Positions 3,529-58,590 of a stretch of DNA of 64,000 bases are shown in pieces. Origin of the DNA: Sclerodactyla briareus (Eukaryota; Echinodermata; Holothuroidea; Dendrochirotida; Sclerodactylidae); contig JAODTK010005624.1 of NCBI GenBank assembly GCA_026419785.1, forward strand, positions 124,001 to 188,000. The letters are read 5' to 3'. Within the stretch, counting starts at the first letter, position 1, and each line of letters starts with the position of its first letter. A program made the translations under genes and the position numbers. The notes beneath the pieces were generated by a model. It had not been told where the DNA came from and did not search any database. It saw only the letters and a program-made list of their open reading frames with translations.

Positions 3529-3584
3529 CTCCACACATTTCAACACAGTGTTTGTGTAACAAGAGGCATAATTACAAGACACAT

Positions 3585-12597: not shown

Positions 12598-12684
12598 CTA
12601 CACTCGCTGATAGAAGTACAGGTAACCAAGGTCCTTGGGTGGTTTCTCTGATGGGCCACCTTCCGATCATTGTAGATTACCCAC
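12598..12684 (-). CDS. USP5: USP5 last coding exon: YND motif and C-terminus
   Basis: After a CCCCAG acceptor the frame reads [10 protein letters not shown], then one base out of phase [17 protein letters not shown] followed by TAG at 12598-12600. This is the family's terminal segment, holding the third catalytic-site residue in the YND motif and the usual YFYQR end. The exon joins the 15088-15171 exon in phase (codon AG|G). One base is missing after the alanine codon, between KVA and SEK. Confidence 0.95.
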
Positions 12685-15600
12685 CTGGGGAATTAGGCAA
12701 TGAGAATTATGGCATGAATAACGTTCTAGTCATGGATTAAAATAAGTGCCGTAATGGAGGAGATTGCAACTGAAGCAGGTTATTATATAGCAGTTTATTA
12801 GACACTGCATGTCATTACGATCTTCTATATGGGTTTTGTCCTTTTACTATAATACAAGACATGGAATAACATACTTGTGCTTTTTTAAGCAAATGAGGGG
12901 ATTCTATCATTCTCATGTTCCAGTTGTTATCATCATGTATAGTATTCTAACAAGAGTGCCAATGACACAGCAGTCACCTGATAATTCATAGTTTTTCCAA
13001 TGTTTCGCTTAAATTTGTATAGTAATATTTATCCGGTTTTGTGAACAATGAGCATGAACAGTCTGCATGAGTGATGCAAAATATCAGTGTGCAAAACAAA
13101 ATTGAACCATGAATGACCTTTGACCTCTAATATCCTAACACCTCATATTTTACAATGTCAATGATAATACAGATCAACTTTCATGTTCATCTAATCTACT
13201 TTGTAGGGCTACAGCTTGCCTCACCATTAAAATAAGATAGCTGAAATTTGCCCTTACAACAATGACCTTTGACCTGAAATTCCTGAACATCCCATAAGTA
13301 ACATTGGCAGTGATAAATATTGACCAACTTTCATGGACCTTCTATCTCTCCTGTAGAGTAGAAACTGCTAGACCGTTCATATTAACACATTGTCCAGGAT
13401 ATACTGAGCAACATACATGATCATCCTATCTGTTCTATAAGAGTAGAAGCTGCTTGACCAAAATTCACCCCTAGACAGCCTGACCACATTTTCCTGACCC
13501 CCCCCCATATGTACTCTTAGTCAACACCCCCCCCCCCCTATGTACTCTTAGTCAACACCCCCCCCCCCCATATGTACTCTTAGTCAACGGTAATAACTAA
13601 TTACAATGTCCATCCTATTCAATATGGGAGAAGAAGCACTCTGTTCATATGACCGTCAAAATTATCATTTTAGCCTAAATGACTCCTGATACCTTGCTCC
13701 AATCTCTCAATCTTTTGTATCTTGGCCCCCGATATATTAAGCAACTTTCACGATTATCCTGAACTGTAGGAGAAGAAGTATTTTGCATATTTTCACAAAT
13801 TATTTTTACCCCTAGATGAGCCTTGACCTGATTGTTCATCCCCCAGATGACCCTTCAACCTGGTCATCAATGTGACCAGGTGTCATATGATCCAACAAAG
13901 GAGTAGGAGCAGCAATTGAATGAATAGGCAGGTAGGCGCGGCCAGTGTGGGGCAGTTGTGTTGTAGTCGTTTTGGCTTAGGCACCGACCATACATACAGT
14001 TAAAAACTCAAGTAATGTGTCCGGCCTCAGCTCGGACTTGGCCGGCCTCGGGACTAGCATCGCTGTAGGCGGCAGGTGGGCGGCAGATGGATGAACAGAC
14101 AAACAAACAACCAGACGAATGAATAAATAAAGAAATGATAGACAGGCCCAATGACAATAGGCTCACCCAGCCACATGGCTGAGTTAAGCTGGAAGCATGC
14201 CTAATGTGTCATTTACCGGCAGGACATGCTAAAGCAAAAGAAAAACTGGAATGGACTGTATTCATACATTTTGCGGGAAGAACGTTCCTCGTTTTGCAAT
14301 TCAATCATTTGTGTGTGTGTTCGGATTGAAAATCTGCAGGTAAACTGTAGTAACTCTATGGAGACCTACGAAAGTTATACCAAGATTCTCAATCCATTAC
14401 ATGAAGCCAGTGTTAATAGCACCCTAGATAGTATCTTGAATGTTTTTCAGCGCAAGTTCACCATGAGTTCAACGTTAGTTACTTTAGAACTATAGTCACA
14501 TATATGTTCAAACAATTCAGCATGAGTCACCACCAATCTAGCAACCAAAAAGTGTTGTAAGAGCTCCAGACTTGTGAGAGTTTGAAGCCACTCAAAGCCT
14601 GTTTTCTCAGCAGTGCTGCTAGACAGGGTATGTCTCTCCAAAGTTGAGGGGGCAGGCTAAGGAGGGGTGACTCCCTCAAGTAGTGAATGCCATTGGTGGT
14701 AACCTTAATATGAAACGCCAGGGCACATAGTGAAGCAACAAATTTTGTATGATGCGTTAGGAGCAGCCGCGTAGCGAGAGATTCGTCTTGGGGGGGTTCC
14801 AGTTGGGGGGAGGGGTCTAAGGGGAGGAGGTGTCCCCCTCCTCTCTAGCAAAAAGTGTGATTTTTGGCTCCCTTATACGCCAATGGTGCAATATTCGTGT
14901 GGAAAACAGTAGTCAAATACTAGAAGATGATCTGTCAAGCGTTTTTCTCTCTATTTCATTTTTCTTTGTCACTTGGGTCATGGGGGGTATACCATTTGTT
15001 GAATGTACATCATAAGCACATCTGTTGAGCCATTAACACCTTTCACAAAACCCTTTCACAAATTTCATTCAGGATTAGGAGTCTTACCTTCCTTCCTTGA
15101 GTATATGACAGACGTAGTGGCCAGAGCTTGTAGACTTCCCCATGTGGCTGATAAACGCCATCAGCTTGTTTCTGCATGAAAGAGTAGAGAGATGTTATCA
15201 TCAACAGACTATGAGTAGAATGGTAAAAGCTAGACAGAGAGTAGCCTGTTGAAACAGGCGTTTGACTTCATTCACCTGCATATCACCTCATTCACCCATA
15301 TTTGCAGGAGACTCTTAACCAATCAGCAATTTGCCAAAACAAACGCCTGTGCGACGTCGTTCTGCTCGCTGTTGAACTGAATCATGGGCGGGACTAGTGG
15401 CGCAAGTGCAAACTTCAATGTTGATTGCACAATCGAAGGTTCTCCCTTTTACTAAATTACGGGACATGCTGCGCTTGGAAAATTACTCTATTGATCTGTC
15501 TGGAATGTTTAGAAACCTCCAACCTATAGTTTGGCATACGAACCAGTACGCATGGATATTCTTTTTTAACTCCCCATTGAGGGATTCATATTTTTCTTAA

Positions 15601-18600
15601 CTTGTGCGGCAATACCAAACATGCAGCAATACATTTCAGATTTCAAATACATCATTCTTTGATAAGTTCTCATTTTCGGTATTGCAGTGGAAGGTTATTG
15701 AAAAGTCTTCTGTAAATATTCATGACTGAAATTTGGGGCAATTTTTCGCGGAATCTATTCAGGGTTGCTCCCATCCATATCAATGCTTGTGTGCTACTGA
15801 TGACTGACATCTAAGTCACATGAATCGTAATGAGCAGAATCCAATTTTGGGGGATTCGTCAAACGAAGTCCTGCAGACGATATGTTGGTAATATTCGACC
15901 GTGGTGGTATATACTAAAGAGTGATAGCCCCCTCTATTTTGGGAAAGGACTTCCCCATATCGTATGCTTTAGCAGGCTAGACAGAGAGAAGACCAGGCTC
16001 AGAAAGTTAAACCCCAGCAAGTATCTAGACCTGGATTATTGCACGTATTGCCAGTGTGGATTTAACAAACAAGGTATAAGACCAGAAAAAGCCGGAAGAC
16101 TTTAGTGGTCCTTGACTGATCCTGACTTGATCAAAAAAAGCGAAGCCACTTGTCACTTCACATGCTCACAAGATTTACAAAAGGTACAATGTAGTACTCA
16201 TTATGGGGAACTCACATACCAAGTATGAACTACATCCATGCAGGTGAGGTCTTGCTAACAAGCTGAAGTTAGCGAAATTATCAATTTTCCGCCTCAGATG
16301 ACCTTGGATCTGACCCCAAAACAATAGGGATTATTTACTCATTATGGGGAGCCCAAATACAAGTATGAGCTTCATAAAAGCCAGGTGGGGGTCAAGTTAT
16401 CGTTTCAACAAGCTAGAATATGATCACAAGTATCAATTTTGCAGTTCTCCAATCTCTCCAAACTGGACCCCGGGCACACAAAAGCGATGGGCTCTCATAT
16501 AACCCATGAGGAACGCTGGCATATAAATTTCACCTGATTGCGGTCATGGCATTATGGACTTATAGGTTAAAAAGATTTTTAGGACTTTGACAACCTCGTT
16601 GACTAGAAGACCTTTGAACCAGGTATTCTAGACTTATAGTGTTAACAAGGTTTCCAGACTTTGAGCTCTCTTGACCTCAGATGATTTTTTGACCTGACCC
16701 CAAAACAATAGGAATCATGCTCTCATCATGGAGAACACAAAACCGTAGGAGATTCATTCATCAAGGTGGAGTGGAGTTATCTTGTTAACGAACTAAATTT
16801 CGCCGAATTATCAATTTTCACAATTTCCATCTTTTTTTCCAAAAACTGGCCCCGGTCTACACAAAAAAACAGTAGGGTTCTTGTACATCCCATAAGGATG
16901 GAAGCGGCAAACTAATTTACCTGATGAGTCAGGCATTTTGAACTTATCTTAACAAGATTTCCAAACTTTTACCTCTCTTGACCTTTTTTTTTTTTTTTTT
17001 TTTTCCCAGGATGTGACCTTTGACATGTCCTCAAAACAATAGGGGGGATCAGTTATCATGATGGGGAACTCATATACCAAGTATGAGCTTCATCCATCAA
17101 GGGTGGATGGAGTTATCGTGTTTAACGAGCTAAAATTTGCCAAATAATAAATTTTTCAAAATTTCTCAGTTTTTCCCCAAATCTCCAATTCTGTGCCCGA
17201 TTAAAACCAAAAACGTACCATAAAAAGCTGCATACCAAATTTCAACCTGATGGTGGGGACCAGGATCGACTTTTCATGTTAACAAGATTTTAAGAATTTG
17301 ACCTCAGATGACCTTTGACCTGACCCCAAAACAATAGGGATCATGTACTCATTATGAGGGACCCATATACCAAGTATGAGCTTCATCCATCCAGGTGGGA
17401 TTGAGTTATGTGTTAACGAGCTAAAATTTGCCAAATTATCTATTCTTCACAATTTTCCATTTTTTCTAGATCTGAACCCTGGTCTGCACCAAAACAATAG
17501 GGTTCCTGTACTCCCCATAAGAAAGCTGCATACCAAATTTCAACCTGATCGGACCAGGCATTCTTGACTTATCGTGTTAATAAGATTTTCAGACTTCAAC
17601 CTCAGATGACCTCTGACCTAACCCCAAAACAATAGGGATCATGTACTCATTATGAGGGACCCATATACCAAGTATGAACTCCATATATCCTATGGGGTTG
17701 AGTTATCCTTTCAACAAGGCAGGTGTCACATACACACACCGGCCCATACAAACACACACTGTCATGAGTGCATAGATTCTCAAAACCCAATTCACCAAGA
17801 CAAGAAATAAGACAATGCCCTGAAACTTCACCAAAACAAGGAATATAAGGCTAAGCCTCTGTGACATGGCTGCGATGTGGATTTGGTATTTTATTTGTGT
17901 GACTGAGTGGCTGGCACAATCGGCAGAGCGTCGGCCTTACACCAGGGAGATCGTAGTTCGAATTCCCGCGTCGGGTCATCAAAGACGTTGAAATGGTACT
18001 GGCTTCTCGTTGGGTGCTCAGCTCACAAGAGTGGGAGCAGAAGGAACGCTGTACAGATAGCACATCCCCATTTTGACATTCACAGCGGGTGGGCCCGGGC
18101 TGAGGTGTCAGGATTATAAGCCCCTGCAGCTAGACGCTGTTCACAGCGTATGCTCAAGCTTTGACCCGCCTATGCCTACCACCTCGCAAACAGAGTGCAA
18201 AAAACTGGGTTCAACTTAAAACACTGGATTGCAAATAGACCAACACTGTCCCCAATTATACCGCGATACAACACTTCAAACGGAGAATGAGTAGTTAGTT
18301 ATGATATCTCAAATACCAAAGCCATTACATAAGGATCAGGTGGGCAGTCTTGCCACGTGGTAAGATATTTTCTCATTCCCATGTTGTAAATGCTGAACAG
18401 TATAGATTTTTAGAAATTCGCAAGTGTATTTGAAGTTGACAGTTTCAGAAATGTGCTGGTGGTCACGCATTTGGATGAAATGGGTTCTCCAATTCCCTTG
18501 GTATGACAAAAGGGGGAAAATTATGCCATCCAGGTTTCATTCAAATGTCACATGATCCAAAACTGCCTGAGTTGATTAGCCAAGAACGAATCAGAGGTTT

Positions 18601-21600
18601 CCTCTGTCCAGCATTACTATTCAACAATGGGAAGTCGAGATACTCACTCCGTGCCATCACAAGCCTGGCTGAGTGGCTGGGGTTGCGCTATCTTCTGTCT
18701 CCATGGCCTCCGAGTGCGCTCGTCCTGTGGCTGAATATCCACTCAACCGGCCCGCTCGACATTGTTGTCGGAAGGGTTCAAAAAAATAGGGAAACAATAA
18801 TGTACATGTAGCACTGTATGTGTGAAGACAGGGACAGTCTTAGCCAGGTATAGGCAACCTCTTCTACGAGTGTTGGCACAGTTGGTAGAGCATGGTCTGA
18901 AATTTATAAGACAGAAATAAGGCTATGACTATGTGGCAGGGCTGCGATGTGGATTTGGTATTTTATTTTGGACTGACCAGTGCTGGCCAATTGGTGAGTT
19001 GTCAGACTCCTACCTGTAGACCGGGGTTTGATCCCGATCGGGTCTACAAGAGACTTTGACAATGGTACTTGTTCGCTTTCTCGCTGGTTGCTCAGCACAG
19101 GATTGGAGCAGGGGCAAACGAGGGATGGGACATTGCAAAAGGGATCTTCTAGCTTGCAAATCAACGCTAGAGTGTTATCAATCGCTGCACAATATTTTCC
19201 AAATTTCAGATAGATCGTTTAGTCCACGATAAATGGAAAAAATATTGATTATCGAAACATAGGGAAGGACTTTCCACATCTGGAAGATTTGGCAGAGTCA
19301 ATCTCATTAGGGAGTGTTTTAGCCGTCATGATGAAGGGTCCTGTATAATTCAACCTAACGGAAAAAAAAAATTGGACGATGATGCACCATATCGGTTGTA
19401 GTGTGACCGGCTCTTAAGAGAGGAGCAATGTTACAGACATACCGTTGCCCTGAGGGCCTTCTTGGCTTGCTCTGCCGTGAAGCCCTTATCGGTATCATGA
19501 ACAGAATCCTCAGACTGGGGGTCTCTTCAGAGGTCTCTGACTTCTATGTAGTGGTTCTGCAAAATCTTCAAAGAAGTGAGCTAAGTCATAACTACATTCC
19601 CAGAGCGTGAATCTCATAATTTCACTAGCAATCACCGTACTGTACTAGATAGAAGGATTACCAACTAAGAGTGATTCTAATAGACCTGGTCCCGCATTAA
19701 AAACAATGGGGACAGGTGTGTTTTCCCAAACGACGAGAGATTTTGCGGGTGGACCGAGTGGGGGGGGGGGGGGCGGGGGGGTTGGGAGGATGGTATGAAA
19801 TTACTTTGAAGGGACAATAAATTAGTCTGGACAGGGTACCTGTATCATGCTCCTTTCCCTCCATTCTGCCCGAGGCAGCCCTCTAGGAACAAATGCATCT
19901 GTATACACTGTATTGTATTGGCAGGAAGGAGAGATTTGTGAGCTATTAGTATTCGTAATAGACCCTGGATACAACCTGAACACAAACAGAGCGATGCGCC
20001 AAATATCATGTAACAGATACACAGTGATGCCCGTGCATGCCCGTGCAGTGCAGTATGACTGCGGCATGCGAACTACATAATTAGGGTACGGCCGCTTTTA
20101 TAACAGACATTTTTGTGAACAGCCTTAGAGGTATACAACCTACAAGCAGATCAGAAGGTGTAGATCTCGGTGTATCACAATTGCCAGATAGCACCTACCT
20201 GCGAGGGGATGTGGTATAACTGCCACAAAAAACTTCTGCCAAGTCATAGAGGACAACTGCGGCTAGATACAACAGAGGGTATATCGTGGAGAATGGAAAC
20301 ACGTTGCTATAGGTTTCAAACCCTATTTCAATCCGATGTTCCATGTGGAGTTAGTGGCCTTCAAAGTTTTGGCCATTAAGCAAAGAAATTGGAAAAGAAT
20401 ATCGATTGCACAATAATGCATGACTTCACACATGCGGCAACACGGGGAACACTTAGGTTATGTTTTTCATTGGATCATTTTGTTGAATAAGTCAAGATTG
20501 AGAGAGTTCTGTTCGTCTTTCTCTCACCTAAGAACCATCAAAACCTACCATTACCAACCACTACAGCAAGCTCACCATCGACTAAAGCGTTGCGCAAGTA
20601 ACTTAGTGTGTGAATTTCAATAGAAAACAAAGAATGTTTGCAGGATTGTGCAAGTATGACATCAAATATTATTGCATGATGGAATGATCTTTCGATTTGC
20701 GCAAGAAACATACTCACAATACAAGACTTTCAAAGGACTATACTCTGTCACGGGAAGTTGTATTGAAACTCTCGGTTTGGACGACGCATTCAGTTTTATC
20801 CAGCTGTATATTAGTCCTTTATAAACATCCTGCAGTTGTCCTTAGGCTATTCATCTAACATCTACACTGAGAAGGAGGGGAATCCTCGTCTGTAAATTGA
20901 ACTCGGGAGAATTTACCAGTACTTTATTCGAGAGGATTATGGTATTCATTTTATACCTGGGTCTCCCATATGCTCCAATACCCAGTTCATGGCTGCTTCG
21001 GGGCCGAGTTCTGAGTGGGGGATAGACGCCTTCCTGCACCCCTCTGGAGGATTCCCATAGCGACAGTGCTCAACGACAGCCTCATCTATCTGGGGTCTGT
21101 ATAGCTGAGGAGGATGATATGGATAAGATATATATTCACTCAGCATGTTCCATTACTGTTCCGCATATAATGTTGGGTAAATATGCATACAGCCACAAAG
21201 GTTCTATTACAACTGTTCTAGAGCTATAGGAATATATGAATATGGAATGAGCATAAGACATATCCTGAGCTGAACCAAAAACAGAAAAGAAAATGGACAA
21301 TTATAATGATATTGAGTGCTTATATAGCACGTGCCAATGTTATTAGAATTCTCAGAGTGCTTCACAGATTGGTAGGCTCATTGGTATGCTCTCAGGACAA
21401 ACCCAGTGAGAGTAAATGTTGTGATTAATTGGCAGGGCCTCAATTCCCCAGTCTGCCAAAACAGTAGGATAGATTGATGGATACATAAGTGCATGTAGGG
21501 CACTTCAATGAACTTGAAATTTAACTGGTATAGGTCTTCCCACATGCGTTCAATTTACACCATTGCTGTGGCTCGAATAAAAAATACTTTCTAATATTGC

Positions 21601-48600: not shown

Positions 48601-51600
48601 TATCATCTGTGATCTATTCGATCAAAATGTCTTGTAGCCTCTTTTGATGGTCGGTTCTGAATATCCTATTCTTCATGTATAGGAGTAGCAGGCTAATCAA
48701 TTGCAACGTACTCCTCTGTATCAGAAGCACCACCATTGACCATACACTACATTTAACTAAAACAGTTTACATGCACCACAGTCCGTGTGCCCTGTAGTGG
48801 CTCATGCGAGCAGTGTATAGAGTTGATCAAGCACTTTGTTAGGATTGTTATGGATTGAATTCTGCGTAGAGCCTGTTATCCGTGTCATCAGATATGCAGC
48901 AGATATATTTACCCATCTAGAATGAATAAATATTTGAAAAGGCTTCCTGCATGCTTCTGCGTGTCGATAAAGCAATGGGCGATTTTCGGCGATGAAAAAA
49001 CGATGAACTTCTCAGTCCAGATGCTCATGAACCTAAACGTCCAAAAAAAAAAAAATGGCAAATTAAAAGGACGATAGAGTTGCCGCCCAGACTACTGTTA
49101 ACGATTGCCAATGTTCAATGGCCGTGGGGTGAAGGGTGCGAAGTTTAATATGTGGTATTGAGGTAAGTGAAATAGATTGACCCCATCTGGAAGAATAATA
49201 TTTTGCTCCTCATGAAGTACCCAGTCTTCTGTTGAAAACCATGTCATGGTTGTTGCCACCAGCCATTATATCAAATTCCATCTTCCACATAGATCACCTA
49301 CAGTGGAAGCTTAAGCTATTCCTCTGTAGGAGTTCCCGTACACTATCCACTCTATCTTCTATATCTAAATAAATGCTCTACCAGGTGTGGATGGCTCCTA
49401 GCTTCACCCTTCCCCTACACCAGTAGCTGCTCACACCTCTCCTTATGAGACTTTCCCATCCTCCCTTCATCATCTATCTACTTATACCACTCTAGAGCAC
49501 ATGGCAGAATGCACCTAGCCACATCACCTGTAGCTTCCATCGCCTAGCTTCTTTCTCCCAGGCAAACGTCCAGGCCTGGGCTGGCTCATCCCCTTCACTC
49601 CCCTGAGCTACGGGCTTCCTGGCGCGCCCCAACTGACCGAATCCAGCCCAAACAGGACACTTGGGCGGTCGTCGGCCAGGAGGCACGCATATGCCCAAAA
49701 ATGTGCAGTTGGTGTTTAGGGGCGAATCAGGCAGCTAGCCTAACATATACAACCCCACAATTCATACCTGCTCCACTTTGTGTGATGTTCCCAGCTTCAC
49801 TGCCAGGGGTACCCCGGTCCTCCTTGTTGAACTCCACCGCATGGTTGTTGCCACCAGAGCCGTCACAATAACTTTTCTCCCCCGAGGATGGTTCATTTCC
49901 AGATCATCCAGAGGTTATCCTTCAGGTCGCAGCGGTACACTTCCAGCCGCTGGGCGACACTTTGACACCGTTGTCCAGTTGTGTTAATTTGTCCGCATGG
50001 TCCTGAAAAACAGATTGTTACAACATATTATCCAGTAATGCCATATACTGTAATACTGACCTACCCACTGACGTGACTTACCAATATAACACCGATCAAT
50101 AGGAGGTAGTTCACCTCAAGTATCTCCAGAGCTCTCAAGAGAAAAATAGCACAGACAGTGTGACCCCTCATTTCCTAACTCCTGTCTCCATTAGCACAGG
50201 GAGGGGGAGGCCATTTCCCTAATAGCACTGGTAAGGTGGTTGTTGACTCATTCATCTCACAACCTATCGGCATCGCTAACACCGATGTTTGTCGGCAACA
50301 AGCAAACTACTCAAAAACGGCTCTAGCGTACTAGCCCAGCGACGACAGACTACCTAAATGACATGCAATCGAAAAATATACCACTCTCCTCTTCACGGAA
50401 GTGGGTAGAGAAATCCATCCATCCTTCCACGCCAACAGAAGAAAAACAACCATCCAAGTGTGAAACTTATAAATTTTGAGACTTTGCCAAATTGTGATTA
50501 TCGACCAAGATTCTCAACAAAGAGGAGAACGATATGGTGTTGCCAGTTAGATAGGGTTCAATTCCGCCAGGGAAATAAGATAGTAGGGCTGAAAGGGGGG
50601 GGGTGGCAAGGTGTGAGTGTGAGATTAAGGAGTGAAGTAGATGCATCCGCGCTAACACCATGTTTTCGGCAACAAGCCTAACTACTCAAAAACGGCTCTG
50701 AGCGTAAACGACGCCCGGCGACGAAAGAACTAAGCCTAAATGACCTGCAATCGAAAAATATACCACTCCCTACTTCACTTCAGTGGTAGAGAATCCTTCC
50801 ACGCAAACGGAAGAAAAACAACCATCCAAGTGTGAAACTTTATAATTTTGAGACTTTTCCAGAAATTTGACTATGAGCAGAGATTCTCAAAACGAAGAGA
50901 GAACGATGGGGTTTCCACAGTTGAGATAGGGTTCATTCCGCCAGGATAAGACCTATTAGGCTGAAAGGGGGGGGGGGGCAAGGTGTGAGTGTGAGATTAA
51001 GGAGTGAAGTAGATTCACCCTCACAAACCTTTCATTAAAGCGTCGAGTTCAGCTGACTGGGAGAGGGAGACGGACTGGAATGACTGTGGCCATTCTACCA
51101 CTCCATTCACATTTAGGTAAGAGTCAAAGACGGTAAAAATGGCTAATCACTTTCAATGCCCTAGCATGAGATACTCTACAACGTTTGTGCTGGTGTCTCA
51201 TTAGGTCAACAAATCTAACTTACTTTGAATGAATTTCCGGGTCTCCGTCCCAGGCAGCAATATCCTCCTGCCTAGAGCTGATCTGCTGTGATGATAGCTG
51301 TCACTGAGGTCAGACCTTTAGAAGATTGGAATAATCTTCAGGTGAGATACACCATTTGGCTAGTTTACAGATGTAGGACTACAGTGATTTAAAGGTTCAT
51401 TAAACTACTGTACGTGGTCAAGAACAATAGGCAGTGTAATAGACTGGCACGTAGCACTTGTAGATCTCTTTCACTTTTATAATTCTGATATTCTTTAGTG
51501 TCTCAAGCACTTCAGGCTGGATTTGTATTGCATGCAAAACCAATTACCACAGCCATGTCCAAGCTGCTTTTGATATTGTTTCTCTATTCCCCTTTTTTGC

Positions 51601-54600
51601 GCTACAGCACCCAAGAGTTATAACCTCCTGTGTCTATGTCGATCAAACTGTCTTGTAGCACACTCTTTTGATGGTCCAGGTTATTAATATGCATAGTCTT
51701 CATGTCTAGGAGTAGCATGCTATCAAATTGCAACCCCCAGCTTCACTACACAAAGTGTACAACAGATCCATTGATTCAATTTCGACCAACCGCAGTTGCC
51801 CTACTTTGAGTACTAAAATGGCTGTGGCAATTCACTCCGCGTGCAACCAATGGAGAGTGCACATATGCGACATTACACAGTGATATTCCAACATTGGCCA
51901 GCTACATGCGAATTTTCATAGGCACTACGAATCATGGCGGGGCACCAGGGGCACTTGCCCCGTCCCCCCACATTGGGGGCCCCCACATTCAGCAGCAGAG
52001 CATTGAGACAAATTGGGCCTGAGTTACCCAATTTTTTTATTGATTGAGTTACCCAATTTTTTTTTATTGATTGCCCAAATATTTTACCTGCCCCGAACTT
52101 CTGTTCACTCTGCCCGAAATACAACAAAACTGTGCCATTTCGGTGCACATTGATCTCTTTCCTGTAATATGTCGTTTAATTCGCATGTCACTGAAATCCG
52201 GGCATTCCTGAAATTACTGCCAAGTTCCCAAACCATGAGGTTTGCAATACACGTGAATGCGCAATTCTAGAGTGAATTACGTTCGGGTACCTGGCAGTGG
52301 TACAGCATGCTCGACAAGATTAACGCATGTTGCCGTCCGCATGCATTGCCAATCACTCCCCTCAGGCTGGATGTAAGGTTTGTGGACTGTGGTGGTCATT
52401 GATTTTATCTCATGTAATTATTAACGGCTAAAGATACCCTTAACATCATTTTCCCGATTGTTGTTTAACGAGTAGCTAGTCGCCAGTCTAGGGTTGCATC
52501 CTATGGTTGTGTGGCAATGTCGATGCATACGTAGAATTTAACCTCGAAAAAGTTTCATAAATTCCTGCTTTCAATTGTTTTGCATCTCGACTTCTACTCT
52601 GATTGTTTTCGGCAACAAGCCTAACTACTCAAAACAAAGGCTATGAGCGTACGACGCCCAGCGACGAAAGAACTAGCCTAAATGACATGTGCAATCGAAA
52701 AATATACCACTCTCCTACTTCAACGTAAGTGGTAGAGAAATCCTCCACGCAAACGAGAAGAAAAACAAACCATACAAAGTGTGAAACTTATAATTTGAGA
52801 CTTGCCAGAAAAATGTGAAATCGACCAGAGATCTCACGAAAGAGAGAAAAAAAACGATGGGGTTGCCAGTTTGAGATAGGGTTCAATTCCGCAGGATAAG
52901 AACTGTAGGCTGAAAGGGGGGGGGGGGCAAGGTGTGCGTTGTGAGATTAAGAGTGAAGTAGATTCATCCTCCACAACCTTTCAATTTACCGCGCGAGTTC
53001 AGCTGACTTGGGAGAGGGAGACTGACTGGAATGACTGTGGCCATTCTACACTCAATTAACATTAGTAGAGTCCAAGACTGCAGAAACTGATTAATCAATT
53101 TCAATGCGCAAGCATGGCGATACTCTAAACGTTATGTGTGGTGTCTCAGTAGGTCCACCAATTAAATTACTTTGAAGGATTTCTGGTCCCGGCCCCAGGC
53201 GCAATATCCTCTGCCTCGAACATGCTGAGTCTGCGGTGATGATACGCTGTACTGAGGTCAGGGACCTTTAGAAGAGGAAATAAATCTTAGGTGAGATGAA
53301 CCATTTGGCTAGTTTACGATGTAGGACTACAGTATTCTAAAGGTCATTAAACTACTGTACGGGTCAAGAACAATAGGCAGTGTAATAGACTGGCACGTAG
53401 CACTTGTAGATCTCTTTCACTTTTAATTATGATATTCTTTAGTGTCTCAAGAACTTTCAGGCTGGATTTGTATGCATGCAAAACCCACTTACCAGTCTTG
53501 CCAGCTGCTTTGTGAATATGTTTCTCTATGCCTTTTTTGAGATACCACCCATAGAATTATACATCATGTGATCTAAGTCGATCAAAATGTCTTGTAGCAT
53601 CTTTTGATGGTCAGTTATGAATAGCATATTTTTCATGTATAGGAGTGAGCAGGCTAATCAATTGCAACCCCAGCTTCACTACACAAAGTGTACAGACAGA
53701 TCCAATTGATTCAAGTTCGACCACGCGCATTGACCTACGGTGATACTAAATGGCTGTGGCATTCACGCGCCTGCACCAATGAGAGTGAACATATCGACAT
53801 TAACACATGATGATCCAACAGTTGCCAGCTACAATGTGACTTTTCATCTCACTAGCGGATTTAGGGCGGGGAAACAGGGCACGGGACGGCCCCCCCAAAT
53901 TTGGGGGCCCCCCACAATTTCAGGCAGAGAATTGGAGAAAAAAATTGGGCGGGGGGATGAGTTCCCAATTTTTTATTGATTGCGTTACCAATTTTTTATT
54001 GATTGCCCAAAAATATTTTTACATGCCCGAATTCTGTTCAACTTCTGCACGATATACAACAAACTGTGCCATTTCGGTGCACATGATCTTTTCTGTAATA
54101 TGTCGTTGTATTCGCATGTCACTGAAATCCCGGGCCAGGTCTGAATTATTACTCCAAGTTCCAACCCATGAGGTTGCAAACAAACTGAATGCGAATCGAG
54201 GAATTAGGTTCGGGTACCTGCAAGGGTACAGGCAAGGATTCGACAAGATTAAAGCATGTGCCGTCGCTGCATTGTCAATGCCACCCTCCCCTCAGGGGTA
54301 GATGTAAGGTTTGTGACTGTGGTGGTCATTGATTTTATCTCATGTAATTATTAACGGCTAAATGTACCTCTCATTATTCCCAGAGTTGTTGTATTTAACG
54401 AGTAGGCTAGTCCAGGTATATGTGTTTGCATCCATATGGTTGTGTGCAATGTCGATGCATAAGTAGAAATTTAAACCTCGAAAAAGTTTCATAAATTCAT
54501 GCTTTCATTGTTTTGCAAATCTTTCTACTCGGTGTTGGCACTGAAGAGCTTCGCAACCTAAATTATCATTTGTACTAAGGGTGTTTCATTCATTAATGCC

Positions 54601-57359
54601 TGGATGACAGGAGAAACAGCCCTGCCGGAAAAAAAGTGTTCTTGTTCAATGTGATACGGTTAATGCAACAATGTAGGAGGGTGACATGTGAAACACACAC
54701 AGTGCACAACAAGTATTTTCTTTTATGCCGCATAAAGGTCTGTTTAAACAAAGGCTGTTTTGGAGGGAATAGAGGGTATAATTTGAGGTCCCGTTACGAC
54801 TGTACCAGTCTCTAGTATTCCGTAAGCTGTATCATGGGCCCACCTACAGACTGCGTGCCACCCCCCCACACATGCTAAATCCAGCCCTGTTCATACCCCA
54901 GAGCCACTGACGCACATGATGTGACATCTGAACCGGCCCCATTACATCAAGTAAATTTCTGTAAATTCCCCTGAACCCCCACACCACCCCGCTATGCCCG
55001 AAACCACCCGCCCCCCCCACCACCACAGCAACCACCCCCCCCCCCCCCCCCACACAAGCCCCTTGCCATGAGCAATTTACCACTGACATACATACGGAGG
55101 TAACAAGAGGGTCGACATTAGATTGTGGTATGAACAAACACGTGAGGATAATGACTCTAAAAAAAGGACTAGCTAAACCACAACCAATATTGTGTTACCC
55201 TATGTTTTTATAGTGTTTGTATTTGATCAATGGCCAAGTTATCAGTCTGTTAATATCTGAACACACATCAGCAAAATTTATAAGCAGAAACATCCCTCGA
55301 AGGACAAAGCTTTTACATGGGAGATTTTAAAACAACAAGCTTTGTGGGAAGAGGTTTCGTCCAAAAAATTTTAGTAATTCACAATATTCAACCTCAGTAA
55401 GTTGTTTGTCACTCAAATGTGACTTATTTGTGTTGACAGTTGTATGAGATCACACATGTGCCCTCCTTTTCAGTTAATATTACACAATTTTTTTGGTGGC
55501 ATTTATCCCTCTCCATGGAACTAATAGGAAGGGTATCCACGCTATGATTCCAGTGCTAGGTTCCACCTTCTTCCAACTTCACAACACGCCTGGTGTCCAG
55601 GATAGTGTGGAAACTGGGTGGGAAATGTAATAGCCTACGTACCTGGGTGGCAAAATCTGTATTAGGTAGAGCCATCATCAAACCCGCCGGGCCCGAACCA
55701 GCTGTTTTAGCTCCTGGAGTTTTCCGAAGAGCCTCTCATCCTCCACGTCAAAGCCTCCTTCAACACCTGAATTTTGAGATACATATTGGAATATTACCAT
55801 AGTAGGAAAATTAATTGAGGGTTAACAAAAAAAAACAGAAAGCCAAAGGCTTAGTGATCCTTGACTCTCGACAACCTATAGCTAGAACACAAGGACAAAT
55901 GGGAGATTGCAACCAGCTCATTATGGGCCAAACATAACTCTGACAAATTTCCCATTTATTCTAAAACAATAGGGTCCGTATACATGTGATAAAGAAACTA
56001 CACACCAATTAAAGAATTTTACCGACATTGACCTATGGTGACCTCTGACCCAACCCCAAAAACAAGGTCCATGCACCACTGTGGGGAAACCACACATACC
56101 AAGTATGGGCCCCATCCATACAAGTGAAGTGAAGTTTAAGGTTACAAGCCAAAACTGGGCATAAAATATATTGACTATCACAATTTCCAATTTTTGGACC
56201 AAAATTTACCCCAACTAAACCAAAAACAATGGGATTCTGTTCTCCCAAATGAAAAAGATACACACCAAATTTCACCTGATCAGACGACTAATATCTGGAC
56301 TTATCGTGTGTACAAGGTTTTCACACTTTGCCCTAAGTGACCTCAGACAACTCTGACCTGACCCCAAAACAATAGGTTCATGTACTCATATGGGTAATCA
56401 TAGGGGTCATCAACCCCAAATCAAGTATGAACTGGAACAATCTGAGTGGGGTCGAGTTAATGTGTTGTGGCTAAAATTGCCAGTTTATCAATTTTCACAA
56501 TTTCCAAATTTCCCCCGAATCGACCCCGATTACACCAAAACAAATAGGGTCCTGTACTCCTAAGAAGAAAGCTGCATACCATATTCCAACCTGATCCAGA
56601 CCAGGCATCGGGACTACTGTGTGACAAGACTTTTCAGGGACTTTGACTCTATGACCTTTGACCTAACCCACAGATTAAGAACAATAAGGAGCATGTATCT
56701 CATCATGGGGATCTACCACACAAAGTATGAGCCCAAGCCATCCCAGCGGGGTCAAGTGATTGTGGTCTACAGCTAAAATCTGTCAAAATATAGCCATCTT
56801 CATATCATCCCCATTCCCTACCAAAATGACCCCTGCTTCACACCAAAAACAATAGGTTCTGTACTCACCATGGGAAGCAGTACAATGTTGAATTTCATCT
56901 TGATCGGACCAAGCAATTCATTAGACTATCATGGCAGGCGGTTTGTAGACTGTGACCTCTGCTGACCTCGGCAAACTATGTCCGACCCCGAAAAACAATA
57001 GGGATCATGTAATCACCATGGGGAACCCACATTCCCAGCCAGATGGGGTTAGAGTTTATCGTGTCCACAAGTTGCGCATAACACACACACACACTTACAC
57101 GGACACACTGTATGATGCATAGATTTGGGACTGTCGTCAAGGAATCGAAAATGGCTATATGAGCACGGGGTGTAGAACATGAAGATTATAAAACCAATCC
57201 AACCCATGTGATGGGCAAAATCTGCCTCGGAAGGAAATACCGCCTAGAGAATAATATAAGTGAATGTGTGTATCACTTACAATGAGCAATGGTTTCATAT
57301 CTTACCTATACGCTAAATTGGTTGGCTTCTCCAAATTCTCCACCTCTTCCTTTGGGTTT
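12598..57359 (-). CDS. USP5: USP5/USP13 ortholog (isopeptidase T), split gene, 5' end missing
   Basis: USP5 is a cytosolic and nuclear cysteine protease that disassembles unanchored polyubiquitin, recognising the free C-terminal glycine through its zinc-finger UBP domain. Exons listed separately match the family in order: linker with GVEGGFD, zinc finger ([12 protein letters not shown]), Cys box (LGNSCYMNS region), catalytic core ([29 protein letters not shown]), UBA1 ([13 protein letters not shown]), UBA2 ([14 protein letters not shown]), His box (SGHYVC) and the C-terminal end ([10 protein letters not shown] to YFYQRV plus stop). Most exons are bounded by AG and GT. Several exons contain one to three small indels relative to the family; others are clean, so uneven sequence accuracy is likelier than gene death. 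About 70-80 N-terminal residues and one exon between 29625 and 21104 were not found. Introns range from under 1 kb to about 9 kb and carry the repeats of the window. USP13 is the vertebrate paralog, and invertebrates usually have a single USP5/13. Confidence 0.93.
13100..13890. repeat. TGACCT-rich degenerate tandem repeat with C-run triplet
   Basis: Four to five diverged units of about 150 bp share TGACCTTTGACCT (13114-13126 and 13263-13275), CAACTTTCATG and AGTAGAAGCTGCT. Inside, at about 13497-13590, three copies of a 30-36-bp block combine a long C run with ATATGTACTCTTAGTCAAC. It lies in the last USP5 intron. Confidence 0.65.
14755..14910. mobile_element. Degenerate DNA-transposon end (GCGTAGCGAG type)
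   Basis: The words CGCGTAGCGAG and runs of G followed by a CCCCCTCCTCTC stretch resemble the termini of hAT-like non-autonomous elements common in marine invertebrates. No transposase and no clear partner end were found, so the family assignment is tentative. Confidence 0.35.
15088..15171 (-). CDS. USP5: USP5 exon with catalytic His box
   Basis: Bounded by TTTCATGCAG and GTAAGA, this clean 84-nt exon encodes [20 protein letters not shown] and then HILKEG. The His of SGHYVC is the catalytic histidine of ubiquitin-specific proteases. No indel is visible, so this stretch is accurate. It continues the frame of the 18648-18778 exon (DG, then KYKLMAF in the family) and hands over to WVIYND. Confidence 0.95.
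16110..17785 (+). repeat. Higher-order dimer repeat array with CA-rich tail
   Basis: About five units of roughly 300-310 bp follow each other. Each unit is itself two diverged halves sharing CAAAACAATAGGG, a TGTACTC block, ATACCAA and TTATCGTGTTAAC. Units carry TGACCT half-sites, with TGACCTTTGACCT at 17309-17321 and TGACCTCTGACCT at 17607-17619. The array ends in CACACACC...CACTGTCATGAGTGCATAG (about 17728-17785), a tail also found at 57.1 kb and in part at 43.65 kb. It lies in the USP5 intron between 18648 and 15171. Confidence 0.75.
17845..18180 (+). mobile_element. tRNA-derived SINE, copy 1
   Basis: A pol III promoter is visible: an A-box-like TGGCACAATCGG at about 17911 and a B box AGTTCGAATTCC near 17956, followed by a non-tRNA body. 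The same head (GGGCTGCGATGTGGATTTGG or a close form) and SINE body recur at 18905-19140. The acceptor stem does not pair, so this is not a functional tRNA gene. Confidence 0.7.
18648..18778 (-). CDS. USP5: USP5 exon: end of UBA2 and linker
   Basis: The exon gives DNNVERA, EWIFSH and [17 protein letters not shown] in closely spaced frames, the end of UBA2 (family form RAVDWIFSH) and the acidic linker before the His box. The donor is GGA|GTGAGT. The expected AG acceptor is not clean at about 18778, and about two indels are present, so the left boundary is approximate. The last residues (DGTG) join KYKLMAF of the next exon. Confidence 0.85.
18905..19145 (+). mobile_element. tRNA-derived SINE, copy 2
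   Basis: Head GGGCTGCGATGTGGATTTGG, A-box-like TGGCCAATTGGTGAG and B-box-like GGGTTTGATCCC, then TTTGACAATGGTACT and TCGCTGGTTGCTCAGC, parallel the copy at 17845-18180. A partial A box (TTGGCACAGTTGGTAGAGC) just upstream at 18865 suggests a third, truncated copy. Confidence 0.7.
19443..19556 (-). CDS. USP5: USP5 exon: UBA2 domain
   Basis: Between acceptor TTTTGCAG and donor GTATGTC the minus strand encodes SEDSV and [14 protein letters not shown]. The GF, QA and ALRAT pattern is the second UBA domain of USP5 (family form SMGFSRDQALKALRAT). UBA domains bind ubiquitin chains. The stretch between SEDSV and GFT is a few bases off, and the frame before SED contains a stop, consistent with one indel. 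Confidence 0.9.
20957..21104 (-). CDS. USP5: USP5 exon: UBA1 domain
   Basis: The exon starts after TCCTCCTCAG and ends at CCAG|GTATAA. It reads [15 protein letters not shown] and [16 protein letters not shown]. This matches the first UBA domain (family: MGFPMDACRKA, then EAAMNWVMSHMDDPD). The LVEMGF segment appears as a slightly shifted HCRYGNPP, so one or two indels are likely. It sits 8.5 kb from the next recognised upstream exon (29625-29710); one exon is missing between them. Confidence 0.93.
21150..24120. other. USP5 intron; no gene seen
   Basis: I searched this stretch for the missing USP5 exon and did not find it. A block at about 21305-21385 (TGCTTATATAGCAC and neighbours) resembles the tail of a tRNA-derived SINE. 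Two overlapping minus frames at 22177-22703 (136 and 84 codons, one with CPKC) have no recognised domain. Confidence 0.4.
24120..29040. repeat. Spacer-like GC-rich block: two tandem 2.1-2.3-kb units
   Basis: After a unique GC-rich leader (24120-24605), unit 1 (about 24605-26735) and unit 2 (about 26740-29040) are diverged copies. Landmarks repeat at an offset of about 2.14 kb (for example CCCGGCGCT at about 24635 and 26770). Each unit has (i) a GC-rich part with three or four roughly 75-bp subrepeats containing CCGAGGTGTAAC and CCCCGTTCGG, (ii) a CTTCGAGCGC/CTCTGCCGT block, (iii) AT-rich subrepeats of about 110-120 bp with GAATCACTTCCGACATGA and ATTGCAGTATAAGAC, and (iv) a GC-rich segment with CGCCGCGCGCGGAG. 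Nested subrepeats of this kind are typical of a ribosomal RNA intergenic spacer, but no 18S, 5.8S or 28S sequence was recognised, so that identity is inference. The open frames here are GC-driven artefacts. Confidence 0.6.
24126..24156. other. Two overlapping, mutually exclusive hairpins
   Basis: GTCCC (24126-24130), loop TTCA, GGGAC (24135-24139) forms one hairpin. GGGACTTAA (24135-24143), loop TTTA, TTAAGTCCC (24148-24156) forms another that shares the GGGAC arm. They sit exactly where AT-rich intron sequence changes to the GC-rich block. Confidence 0.6.
29041..29265. repeat. Copy of a block also present near the USP5 zinc-finger exon
   Basis: TTTTCGGCGATGAAAAA, AAATGGCAAATTAAGAAGG and AGGACGATAGRGTTGCC-type words also occur at about 46010-46210 and 48950-49160. 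It marks either a dispersed repeat or a misplaced read end at the right edge of the spacer-like block. Confidence 0.65.
29268..29595. repeat. About 78-bp tandem repeat, four copies
   Basis: Units share ATGGTCAGTAAC, CCTGGTTCCACCCCA, TGGCATCTCACT and ATGAAACCAG. Four diverged copies lie immediately downstream (in gene direction) of the USP5 exon at 29625-29710. Confidence 0.8.
29625..29710 (-). CDS. USP5: USP5 exon: catalytic core FPDYL segment
   Basis: Between TGTGTTTAG and GTAAGTACG the frame reads [20 protein letters not shown], then TGFKKLG. The family form is [21 protein letters not shown], a core strand and helix of the protease fold. The following DWVPKKL motif is altered to TGFKKL. 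The next family segment (about 60 residues up to UBA1) is not found on the lower-coordinate side, where the spacer-like block begins. Confidence 0.93.
31165..31469 (+). mobile_element. tRNA-derived SINE abutting a USP5 splice donor
   Basis: An A-box-like GTTGGCCTAATTTG is followed by TTGTACCCTTGAGC, GGTGTACAAATGGAGA, ATACTCTCCGGGATT and GCAAAGCACTTTGGTGG. All are shared with the better copy at 35849-36120. The tail is an A/T trinucleotide-like AATAATAATTATCATTATT. It ends directly at 31469, where the exon 31470-31649 ends on the minus strand, so the tail and the splice donor are contiguous. Confidence 0.75.
31470..31649 (-). CDS. USP5: USP5 exon: catalytic core with VPF-CLE motif
   Basis: After CCTTCATAG the exon reads [12 protein letters not shown] (first codon shared with the previous exon), then [16 protein letters not shown], and ends before GTAATAATG. 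The family has YEEKKRQAEE, then VPFSSCLEAYGAPEQVDDFW. The middle and the WST region carry small indels. The donor site borders the tail of a SINE. Confidence 0.9.
32942..33097 (-). CDS. USP5: USP5 exon: VEER segment of catalytic core
   Basis: The acceptor is ATTTTCCAG. Three frames together carry the family features: RNSV at the start, VEERNEC in the middle, and AATNI at the end (family: RNCRSSENPNEVFRFLVEEK, then LPVPMDAALN). Two or three indels interrupt the frame. The expected donor lacks its T (G|GAGGG), which fits a one-base loss. The last base G pairs with AT of the next exon to give the D of DEVNA. Confidence 0.85.
33735..33855 (-). CDS. USP5: USP5 exon: QDGIAPRM and QQDA helix
   Basis: Between CCTCCCCAAG and GTAACTTG the exon encodes [19 protein letters not shown] and, one base out of phase, [17 protein letters not shown]. 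Both match the family ([17 protein letters not shown], then RQQDAQEFFLHLINMVE) very closely. One missing base between the two halves is the only disturbance. Confidence 0.96.
34642..34717 (-). CDS. USP5: USP5 exon: AKFGQ and acidic loop
   Basis: Between CCCACTCCAG and GTAAGTATTG the exon shows AKFGQ, ILSGD and [12 protein letters not shown] in shifted frames. The family has VAKLGHGLLSGEYSKP and an acidic stretch. Two or three single-base losses are implied. The first G completes the methionine codon AT|G from the preceding exon. Confidence 0.88.
35336..35407 (-). CDS. USP5: USP5 exon: clean 72-nt core exon
   Basis: This exon is intact: acceptor CCTAAG, coding [19 protein letters not shown] then FNVQM, donor GTAAGTCAC. 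It aligns with the family's KYVDKLEKIFQNAPTDPTQD-FSTQV. It is one of two exons without any indel and shows the gene's true coding quality. Confidence 0.95.
35849..36120 (+). mobile_element. tRNA-derived SINE (best copy)
   Basis: A box TGGCCTAATTGGTCAAGGC and a B-box-like GGTGTGGGTCGAGCC are followed by CACGTTGTACCCTTGAGC, ATACTCTCCGGGATTG and TATAAAGCGCTTGAGCAC, ending near GCGCCTATATAAG. The tail CGCTTGAGCACTATGG...CTATATAA is typical of tRNA-SINEs in echinoderms. It is inserted in a USP5 intron. Confidence 0.8.
36425..36481 (-). CDS. USP5: USP5 exon with catalytic cysteine
   Basis: Between TTTCATTCAG and GTACTTGAG this 57-nt exon covers the Cys box. The preceding exon ends in AG and this one starts with C, giving the Ser of NSC. 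TGT at 36478-36480 is the catalytic cysteine. The next codon reads TAA where the family has tyrosine (CYMNS or CYLNS), then ATG AAC. Later PVLQVL and, shifted, IPDFVQR match VVQVLFSIPDFQR. Three disturbances in 57 nt either reflect base errors or mean this copy cannot make an active enzyme. Confidence 0.88.
36800..38640. other. USP5 intron; unexplained minus frame
   Basis: No exon of USP5 was found between the Cys-box exon and 38690. A 73-codon minus frame at 37190-37411 (begins [15 protein letters not shown] and contains FDFESWYCE) looks protein-like but matches nothing I recognise. The rest appears unique and AT-rich. Confidence 0.35.
38690..38926 (-). CDS. USP5: USP5 exon: after zinc finger, up to Cys box
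   Basis: Acceptor ATTGCAG, donor GTATGATT, 237 nt. It begins [20 protein letters not shown] (family: ADVYSYDEDDMVLDPSLAEHL), then DKTEREI (KTDKTMTELEI), then ESWEWIPY (IGEWELI), and ends [19 protein letters not shown] (QESGVPLKPLFGPGYTGIRN). Two in-frame stops and several shifts are present. The final bases (CTGGGAACCAG) correspond to LGNS of the Cys box. Confidence 0.85.
39202..39586. mobile_element. MITE-like element with inverted ends and TA flanks
   Basis: The left end TAGGGCCGGACAAATGCGCG and the right end CGCGCAATTTGTCCAGCCCTA are inverted copies with one indel and about two mismatches. TA stands at both outer edges. The 385-bp interior has no transposase and contains AAACACGCAAACAAAGCG. 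This is a non-autonomous DNA transposon; TA duplication suggests a Tc1/mariner-type source, while the GGGCYGGACAAAT end also resembles hAT termini. Confidence 0.75.
39710..40575. repeat. 45-bp minisatellite array, about 19 copies
   Basis: The unit contains GTAGAAGGGCTCACCCTCC, TTCCACACCGCACTTAGG and TCCACTG. The array is indel-noisy. Because 45 is 15 codons, several minus frames stay open and give repeated VWKEGEPF-type peptides; these are repeat artefacts. It lies in a USP5 intron. Confidence 0.9.
40576..45754. other. USP5 intron rich in TGACCT repeats
   Basis: No exon was found. At 43190-43720 and 44000-45250 lie diverged relatives of the CAAAACAATAGGG/TGACCT repeat family. The first ends in a CACACA tail with GTGCATGATGCAT (43639-43700). 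The second ends in ACGGACAGACAGACCGACAG-type GACA microsatellite (45182-45235). Direct half-site pairs TGACCTTGAATGACCT occur near 43511 and 44027. Confidence 0.5.
46800..47035 (-). CDS. USP5: USP5 zinc-finger UBP exon, copy 1
   Basis: The acceptor is CTGTTTTCAG, the donor CGCAG|GTATC. Fragments [32 protein letters not shown] and PLAVKL match the USP5 zinc finger ([20 protein letters not shown], then [19 protein letters not shown]). In the family, the three Cys and one His of this domain hold zinc, and the pocket binds the ubiquitin C-terminal GG. The first two Cys codons are scrambled by indels here but legible in copy 2. Confidence 0.93.
48211..48289 (-). CDS. USP5: USP5 exon before zinc finger, copy 1
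   Basis: Acceptor GACCTCAG. Legible fragments are ADS, ASITAD-like and AWDGD; compare copy 2 for a better reading. The family has LLSADSASRKQEVQAWDGEVRQVSK. The donor should be AAA|GTAAGT but reads GAAGTT here. Confidence 0.8.
49768..50002 (-). CDS. USP5: USP5 zinc-finger UBP exon, copy 2
   Basis: Acceptor TGTTTTTCAG, donor GCAG|GTATGAAT. It begins [20 protein letters not shown] followed by C, then [24 protein letters not shown] and GTPGSEA-type shifted ends. The family's zinc ligands can be placed: Cys in SGWKC, the second Cys two residues on, and His in GNNHAVE. It is about 2.97 kb from copy 1. Confidence 0.93.
51224..51303 (-). CDS. USP5: USP5 exon before zinc finger, copy 2
   Basis: Acceptor GACCTCAG, donor AAA|GTAAGTTAG. 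It reads TAIITAD, then [11 protein letters not shown] and a short basic end. This matches the family's ADSASRKQEVQAWDGEVRQ just upstream of the zinc finger. Confidence 0.88.
51930..52150. mobile_element. Transposon-like relic (GGGGCCCCC type), copy 1
   Basis: GGGGCACCAGGGGCACTTG and GGGGGCCCCCACATT are followed by two ACCCAATTTTTTTATTGATTG blocks. This resembles one end of a degenerate non-autonomous DNA transposon. A second copy is at 53850-54130 as part of block C. Confidence 0.4.
53171..53251 (-). CDS. USP5: USP5 exon before zinc finger, copy 3
   Basis: The same exon again (IITADSA, then a shifted GRGYCAW-type stretch), with acceptor GACCTCAG and a GTAATT donor. It lacks a following zinc-finger copy of its own because block C follows block A here. 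Confidence 0.75.
53850..54130. mobile_element. Transposon-like relic (GGGGCCCCC type), copy 2
   Basis: Duplicate of the relic at 51930-52150 (GGGGGCCCCCCACAATTT, ATTTTTTATTGATTG, TTCGGTGCACATGATC), differing by indels. Confidence 0.4.
54985..55060. repeat. C-rich low-complexity tract
   Basis: Runs of C up to 18 long with CCACCACC interruptions. The minus strand is G-rich and could form G-quadruplex-like structures; there is no gene. Confidence 0.6.
55643..55766 (-). CDS. USP5: USP5 linker exon with GVEGGFD
   Basis: Acceptor AAAATTCAG, donor CACCCAG|GTACGTAG. The start reads [11 protein letters not shown] and the end, in another frame, [11 protein letters not shown]. The family has LAIGVEGGFD at this place, then an LP motif shortly before ADSASR. 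A net one-base shift separates the two ends. The first Gly is completed by the preceding exon. Confidence 0.85.
55960..57130 (+). repeat. Second higher-order dimer repeat array with CA-rich tail
   Basis: About four diverged units of the 16110-17785 family (CCAAAACAATAGG, CAAGTATG, ATACCAAATTTC-like, GACC words), with TGACCTTTGACCT at 56652-56664. It ends in CACACACACACAC and CACACTGTATGATGCATAG (about 57079-57125), the same tail as the 17.7-kb copy. It occupies the USP5 intron between 57306 and 55766. Confidence 0.75.
57306..57359 (-). CDS. USP5: USP5 most 5' exon recognised (KEE...KPT linker)
   Basis: Between CTTCTTACTCAG and GTAAGATATG the 54-nt exon encodes [17 protein letters not shown]. 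The family has RRPKEEDPATG, then KKPTRLAIGVEGGFD. The bases GCGTATAG would read LAIG into the next exon if one G were absent, so a single extra base is likely. No exon for the start codon or the N-terminal variant UBP domain was found above this point. Confidence 0.85.
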   Translation of the reverse strand, partial: KPKGRGGEFGEANQFSV

Positions 57360-57364: not shown

Positions 57365-58590
57365 TAAGAAGGGAGAAAAGGACACTGAGCAGGGAATACC
57401 TATAGCTGAAGATGATGGGCCCCTTATAGGTTTGGTGACCTATACAACCAGGATTGTCAGTCAATTACCTGGCTCTGGACCATTGAGACACTGTACAGAT
57501 GGAGAGGGTACGGTATAGGAACGTCGATAGGGTAGGCGCACCAGGCAGGGCACTGGGTGGGGCGGTCAGTACACAAGCAGTATTGGAGCCAAGCTGCCTG
57601 GCACCCTTTTTTGTAGTGATAATATACTGTATAATTCACATTATAACGGACCCCAATATCACATGTATGTCACAGAATAGTCAATATGATATGGATGGAG
57701 CGAGAGGTAGGAAATAGACAGGAAAGACGGAAGATGGATGGGACGACAGATAGCTAGGCAAAAGGTGGAAGTGGAAGAAAAACAATAGACCACAATGAGC
57801 CAGGCTTAGCTGTTGGCTAAAAACACATTTTCCATAATTCTTCTTTTCTCTTCAGATGAAATGCTCATTATGGCTATTCGGGAGGGTATTCACACTTATC
57901 AACAAACGGAGATAGTGTCAACTAACAAGTTTCAAGGTGGAGGTCAGGAAAAGTTGCCTTTTTAACCCAGTTATATATCAATTCAATTCAATGGATAGCA
58001 CATTACAGCAAATAATTGTTCAAGTACCCAAAAAAAATGTGACAAATAGTGCTGATTTGGTGTACTTATTACACTGAACATTCACTTTTGAGCAAGTAGT
58101 GCAAGGTAGGGTGTAAATAGTGAAGCGTCCTACACTCATTTTCTTTAGTATTTCGTCATGTACATGTAAGAATGTGAATCAAATAAAGAGTTGCAATTTA
58201 GGATTCATTCAGACTCCTAATCATGGTCCACCACTTTCTTTCTTTGCTCAGTCATGCAGACATATGCTAGGCACAGAAAGGGGGTACGTAAAGTGGGCCA
58301 GTTTATGTCCATGAGTGAAGGTAATGTAGGCAATGGCGAACTGGCGGACTGCCACCCTGACCTAGATACATAGCCACCCACGCCCCCCCCCCAGTAACTA
58401 TAACCAAACCAGTGACCACCTTTGTTACCTTTGTTTTGATGTCTTTTTTTTTTCCCAATTATTTTTGGGTAGAGGGGGTTTACGTTGACTGGAAGTGCCG
58501 CAAGACATGCTCCTTACAGAGGACAAGGAAGCATGTACATACAGACGAACAGTCATCACCAATCTAGCTGATGTGTAGAGAAAGCAAAGG
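57365..58590. other. No gene seen
   Basis: I searched the minus strand for the USP5 N-terminal exons and found none. A 60-codon minus frame at 57457-57639 ends at a donor-like CCAG|GTAATTG but has no USP5 resemblance. A (T)-run and CCCCCCCCC tract occur near 58385 and 58445. Confidence 0.4.

Follow-up and report, generated by a model that had tools for sequence, protein, structure and literature searches.

The question raised by this locus is whether a gene for isopeptidase T (USP5/USP13 family) is encoded in short, frame-broken exons on the minus strand and, if so, whether the breaks belong to the animal or to the assembly. The window, i.e., the whole 64-kb stretch of DNA analyzed here, corresponds to bases 124001-188000 of contig C2867 (206,570 bases), and the assembly searched comprises 319 Mb in 3,171 contigs. 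Human USP5 was aligned to the minus strand of window positions 12000-64000 plus the next 9,999 contig bases with our own GeneWise-like aligner, which is spliced and frameshift-tolerant and takes introns running from GT or GC to AG in the three phases. The human query agrees with PDB 3ihp throughout residues 1-628 and 653-858; those between 628 and 653 are outside the 3ihp chain or different from it.

With strict settings, the minus strand scored 852.4 vs 53.8, 55.3, and 58.0 for three block-shuffled sequences and 60.5 for the plus strand. The score was 676.3 with stricter settings still, and 412.1, with three stops in the path, when frameshifts were in effect forbidden, vs 45.0-53.9 for the nulls in both cases. 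The strict path contains 24 blocks and 23 introns, with 385 of 769 aligned residues identical; 22 of the 23 introns start with GT and one with GC, and 11 start with GTAA or GTGA. The USP5 exons are therefore collinear on the minus strand, and the identity, exon order, and strand proposed in the initial annotation, which had suggested such a spliced alignment as a check, are borne out by these scores and by the five Pfam families described below.

Its count of seventeen exon types was not reproduced exactly: the lax path has 33 blocks, 26 of which score at least 20 and 17 at least 40, and several of the low-scoring ones are probably fillers. The lax score was 1356 vs 428-477 for 14 nulls (the plus strand with USP5 and with USP13, reversed USP5 and USP13, five block-shuffled DNAs, and five shuffled queries). 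However, the plus-strand null at lax settings still yielded 277 identities in 728 residues, with 82 frame breaks and 34 introns; the lax alignment thus overfits, and its counts, like the PDB E-value of its translation, carry little weight. The exons are the following, in the order of the gene, where "both paths" means the lax and the strict path:

58486-58563, minus strand: N-terminal cryptic zinc finger exon (LFVCM..FLVLCKEHVLRHFQS), both paths, human residues 40-64
57307-57359, minus strand: weak exon piece (..LEKPTNLA), start of the earlier interval, lax block score 10
55699-55766, minus strand: exon, both paths
53170-53267, minus strand: linker exon, copy 1 of 3 (matched stretch), score 48, by itself within the null range; recognized by DNA duplication
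51226-51315, minus strand: linker exon, copy 2 of 3, lax path, followed by donor GTAAGT
49768-50002, minus strand: zf-UBP exon (zinc finger that binds the ubiquitin C-terminus), copy 1, frame-broken, score 221
48209-48325, minus strand: linker exon, copy 3 of 3 (matched stretch), score 56, by itself within the null range; recognized by DNA duplication
46800-47035, minus strand: zf-UBP exon, copy 2, frame-broken at codons other than those of copy 1, score 210
41283-41371, minus strand: exon (..LAKHLAH.GINMFEM), both paths
38692-38821, minus strand: exon, both paths, local score 117
36418-36481, minus strand: catalytic Cys-box exon (SC*MN.VLQVL.PIPDF) with the one in-frame stop, both paths
35338-35398, minus strand: exon, both paths
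34642-34717, minus strand: exon (MAKFG.GILSG.YSKP), both paths
33681-33855, minus strand: exon, 3' end setting-dependent, both paths, local score 150
32935-33050, minus strand: exon (VEERNECA..), limits setting-dependent, both paths
31472-31629, minus strand: exon, 5' limit setting-dependent, both paths
29580-29710, minus strand: exon, 3' limit setting-dependent, both paths, local score 87
20903-21104, minus strand: first UBA domain exon, 3' limit setting-dependent, both paths, local score 126, PF22562 on the read-through
19443-19534, minus strand: second UBA domain exon, first part, both paths, PF00627 on the read-through
18650-18754, minus strand: second UBA domain exon, end (VEWIFSH), both paths
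15090-15171, minus strand: catalytic His-box exon, without frame break, both paths
12601-12684, minus strand: C-terminal exon, one frame break, both paths

The read-through protein, i.e., the translation from the lax path, matched UCH, UBA_7, zf-UBP, zf-UBP_var, and UBA, all above the Pfam cut-off, and a plus-strand control built with the same freedom matched no family. A cryptic N-terminal finger (PF17807, zf-UBP_var, 8.6e-12) is followed by the canonical zf-UBP (PF02148, 3e-13) and by the USP catalytic domain (PF00443, UCH, 1.9e-36), in which profile positions 1-254 of 254 are covered. The two UBA domains (PF22562, UBA_7, 1.4e-20, two stretches, the best at 637-682; PF00627, UBA, 1.9e-6, at 715-739) both sit inside the UCH match, at 312-829 of the read-through. 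The order of domains is accordingly cryptic and canonical zf-UBP fingers, a USP catalytic domain split by a pair of UBA domains, and a C-terminal stretch. In the PDB, the read-through found 3ihp at 1.1e-266, but the control also reached 1.5e-134, and this E-value was dropped as evidence; other USPs and the USP13 chains were matched by the true read-through only.

The catalytic residues of human USP5, which we take to be Cys335, His818, and Asp834, were checked letter by letter at their equivalents in the gene: the Cys lies in SC (36481-36418, then the stop), the His in GHYVCH (15171-15090), and the Asp in YND (12684-12601). The His-box and C-terminal exons are unmistakable. The gene thus resembles human USP5 (PDB 3ihp) in its collinear domain order and catalytic triad, as well as in the finger residues equivalent to W209 and Y261, which are present as Trp and Tyr, and differs from it in sequence (385/769 identical, strict path) and in the linker and zf-UBP exons, which are duplicated in the assembly. 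According to PMC3247260, W209, R221, and Y261 matter for ubiquitin binding by USP5, and USP13 has a Phe at the position of Y261. The R221 equivalent lies on or beside frame breaks in both zf-UBP copies and is not readable for that reason; each zinc ligand of the finger can be read in one copy or the other, both copies being broken inside the finger. Human USP13 belongs to the same family with the same domain order, and some stretches (LTQLDNG, LAKHLAH) look closer to it, but its query scored below USP5 at each of the four settings (one lax, three strict), and the Y261 position is Tyr here rather than the Phe given for USP13 in that source. We found no literature on USP5/USP13 in echinoderms. 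To our knowledge, non-vertebrate animals have one gene for both USP5 and USP13.

The gene extends upstream of 57359. The interval initially assigned to it, 12598-57359, scores 826.9 by itself with strict settings over human residues 102-856 (a score given without a null for this sub-interval), but its 5' boundary was set too short. The weak piece at 57307-57359 is followed by the donor GTAAGA, which the strict path retains, and exon 58563-58486 reaches a local score of 79, vs a maximum of 69 in the 984 null windows against which local exon scores were judged, and is matched by PF17807 on the read-through. The first exon is likely to be found outside the window, at contig 192,936-192,880 (TTRVHKAARKYHKDECVLT); since the score of this candidate, 54, falls inside the same null range, the call depends on its place in the exon order and its HKDEC motif. 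There is an ATG at contig 192,977, in a frame different from that of the candidate.

The exon inventory also needs correction within 45.7-54.5 kb, where there are three copies of the linker exon and two of the zf-UBP exon. The splice sites of zf-UBP copy 1 are the acceptor TTTTTCAG and the donor CAG|GTATGA; those of copy 2, which is matched by PF02148 at contig 170815-170967 (E 0.003), were also read from the sequence. The features of the duplicated region are:

45730-48707, minus strand: tandem unit, downstream copy (linker exon, zf-UBP exon, relict), 83-84% identical to 48681-51734
48681-51734, minus strand: tandem unit, upstream copy, differing mostly by 1-nt gaps and G/T and A/C mismatches
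50661-54530, minus strand: second, overlapping tandem duplication, in which 50661-52599 recurs at 52604-54530
49170-49292, minus strand: probable relict of the zf-UBP exon (second half), copy 1, DNA score 47 vs exon copy 1
46222-46350, minus strand: same relict, copy 2, limits approximate; weaker, follows from the tandem duplication
45987-46221, minus strand: dispersed repeat adjoining the relict exon, with 40 of the 44 matches listed

Both duplications are head-to-tail, with a spacing of about 3.0 kb (45730-48707/48681-51734) and about 1.9 kb (50661-52599/52604-54530), and a 372-base sub-repeat lies inside the duplicated region. No other long copy of the tandem unit was found among the 40 of 693 assembly candidates that were scored.

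The relict at 49292-49170 scores 47 against zf-UBP copy 1 and 31 against copy 2 (E 4.6e-5 in the DNA comparison); outside the exon copies, the best of 1,968 comparisons reaches 36. Its counterpart at 46350-46222, with scores of 33 and 21, does not rise above chance (E 0.13), and the peptides of the relict half-exons matched no Pfam family at E 1. The half-exon ends where the dispersed repeat starts, at 46221. Among the matches listed for this repeat, 35 of 40 begin at unit position 2484-2490, and those on other contigs are 77-83% alike (40 of the 44 matches listed, with 40 of 693 candidates scored). These limits suggest that the relict is a dead copy of the zf-UBP exon cut off by the dispersed repeat. 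A further candidate relict at 46459-46424 (E 10) was not supported.

Turning to the frame breaks, the strict path crosses 35 of them with one stop in 747 matched codons, and the lax path 82 vs one stop, so that their number is 20, 35, or 82 depending on the setting. Such an excess of breaks over stops points to base error, since free decay should bring more stops. Stops do occur, however, and count against this reading: that of the strict path comes right after the catalytic Cys, and zf-UBP copy 1 shows one at an intermediate setting. In the lax path, zf-UBP copy 1 is broken at codons 200, 211, 213, 215, 219, 223, 240, and 251 and copy 2 at codons 186, 197, 221, 234, and 249, i.e., 8 and 5 breaks (4 and 4 at stricter settings), none of them common to both copies. 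The density is uneven, from no break in the 82-base His-box exon to 8 or 9 in some others (lax). Programmed frameshifting or RNA editing that restores the frame of a gene truly broken in DNA would account for breaks inside otherwise conserved exons, but the lack of a common break position in the two fingers, the variable density, and the breaks seen also in actin make this explanation extremely improbable.

Base error is also the reading favored by the differences between repeat copies. Between the two tandem units, one-base gaps make up 239 of 287 gap events, and the 128 mismatches comprise 85 G/T or A/C, 26 transitions, and 17 others; in two other copy comparisons, the G/T or A/C share was 69/100 and 33/51 (binomial against one third, p 2.5e-14 for 85/128 and 4e-13 for 69/100). 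A pair of copies in the GC-rich stretch showed 69 G/T or A/C in 129 mismatches, with 36 transitions. Improper alignment (0 mismatches counted) led us to leave out two further comparisons, those for 16292-17409 and the 51-bp array. The yardstick was the dispersed repeat, compared between the window and other contigs and among contigs, which gave 111 transitions, 93 G/T or A/C, and 64 others, in pairs that are non-independent, with two overlapping loci, the noisy window copies included, and locus L046 omitted (match too short). An alignment of the two window copies of this repeat has 42 gap columns and 7 mismatches, of which 6 are G/T or A/C. Confusions of G/T and A/C fit a two-dye PacBio instrument; our literature search on PacBio mismatch spectra found nothing beyond work on another platform.

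Highly conserved genes elsewhere in the assembly are broken as well. Three actin loci on contigs C2792 and C1260, 80-94% identical to human beta-actin (341/369, 279/348, and 351/374 residues, strict), are free of stops with strict settings but have 2, 7, and 5 frame breaks; with lax settings they have 4, 16, and 7 breaks with 0, 2, and 0 stops; HSP70 loci contain 16, 12, and 5 breaks with 1, 0, and 0 stops. Contig C2424 (L037-L040) carries several partial, frame-broken HSP70 loci and 13 of the 14 HSP70 matches of the assembly. Against base error, the copies of the 62-bp array at 2484-3530 are 95% alike, which would require errors to be patchily distributed. As far as can be judged from the sequence, the most likely source of the frame breaks is base errors of long reads left uncorrected in the assembly rather than mutations, and the gene in the living animal is thus probably intact.

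The alternative is a decayed unprocessed pseudogene, i.e., an intron-bearing USP5 copy released from constraint, in which frameshifts and partial duplications have accumulated. The many breaks (20, 35, or 82), the stop after the catalytic Cys, and the tandem duplications with a probable relict exon would suit it. We nevertheless judge it very unlikely, given one stop per 747 codons at strict settings, the preserved catalytic residues, breaks that the two zf-UBP copies do not share, an error-like mismatch spectrum, and actin loci that are broken too. Moreover, no other USP5 locus that might be the working gene was found in the assembly: the search with USP5 gave six matches, five on contig C2867 and one elsewhere at E 7.5, and revealed no second, cleaner copy. 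A locus on contig C1315 with zf-UBP and weak UCH matches was rejected, as its strict USP5 score of 57 is at the level of the window nulls.

The tandem copies themselves are explained about equally well by a recent local duplication and by an assembly artefact. A working USP5 with a real recent duplication of linker and zf-UBP exons, in which the ubiquitin-sensing finger is repeated or alternative or one of the copies is silent, is a possible but tentative reading; it is compatible with an intact gene and concerns the duplication alone. It is supported by the two head-to-tail duplications, which overlap and have spacings of about 3.0 and 1.9 kb, and by the retention of most of the motif in both zf-UBP copies, but the identities in the three copy comparisons are the same (84, 84, and 85%), as equal error on near-identical copies would give, and these identities and the mostly error-type changes are also expected if the assembler laid down one locus twice, a misassembly that the 372-base sub-repeat invites. 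It is unlikely, if worth stating, that the duplications are real and that USP5 is produced in forms whose zf-UBP finger is doubled or alternative, in which the sensing of free ubiquitin chains would be tuned by exon choice; the relict half-exon would then date from an earlier round of this process. We found no literature on isopeptidase T with exon duplication. The locus is, very probably, an ordinary intron-rich animal USP5 gene (isopeptidase T, USP5/USP13 family) on the minus strand, with breaks that are most likely long-read errors and tandem copies that are duplication or artefact.

The initial annotation anticipated that annotation based on open reading frames would miss the gene, and the 10 ORFs scanned, of the 25 ORFs of at least 100 aa in the window, had no Pfam match at E 0.01. 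The indel scars, in turn, are not what makes it notable; since they are best explained as assembly errors, which affect actin and HSP70 loci elsewhere in the assembly as well, the hidden gene is an annotation problem. No tRNA and no Rfam match were found in the 64-kb window. In a GC-rich stretch at 24587-29042 (57% over 24001-28000), copies recur at a spacing of about 2.1-2.3 kb with a pairwise similarity of 67-78%, and both strands carry long ORFs, the longest of which (27074-27805) has no Pfam match. Tandem arrays lie at 2484-3527 (about 62 bases), 3592-3812 (about 51), 7184-8856 (about 51), and 39700-40575 (about 45), the 51-base unit being present in separate arrays. The 319-Mb assembly gave no COX1 match at E 0.001, which implies that the mitochondrial genome is absent from it or unreadable, and at least 2 UCH and at least 4 histone matches (exon by exon, lower bounds), below the expectation for an animal.

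Since even actin loci are frame-broken, gene absence, pseudogene calls, and ORF-based annotation are not to be trusted in this assembly without polishing, and the main value of the case is this caution about a poorly polished assembly. The kinds of change seen between repeat copies (one-base gaps, G/T and A/C mismatches) offer a cheap, read-free test of base error vs decay. USP5 as such is a conserved gene with a housekeeping role; the tandem duplications of the linker and zf-UBP exons (45.7-54.5 kb) and the probable relict half zf-UBP exon at the dispersed repeat are new details. By analogy with its family, the enzyme would take free ubiquitin chains apart, and its zf-UBP finger would sense the free C-terminus of ubiquitin.
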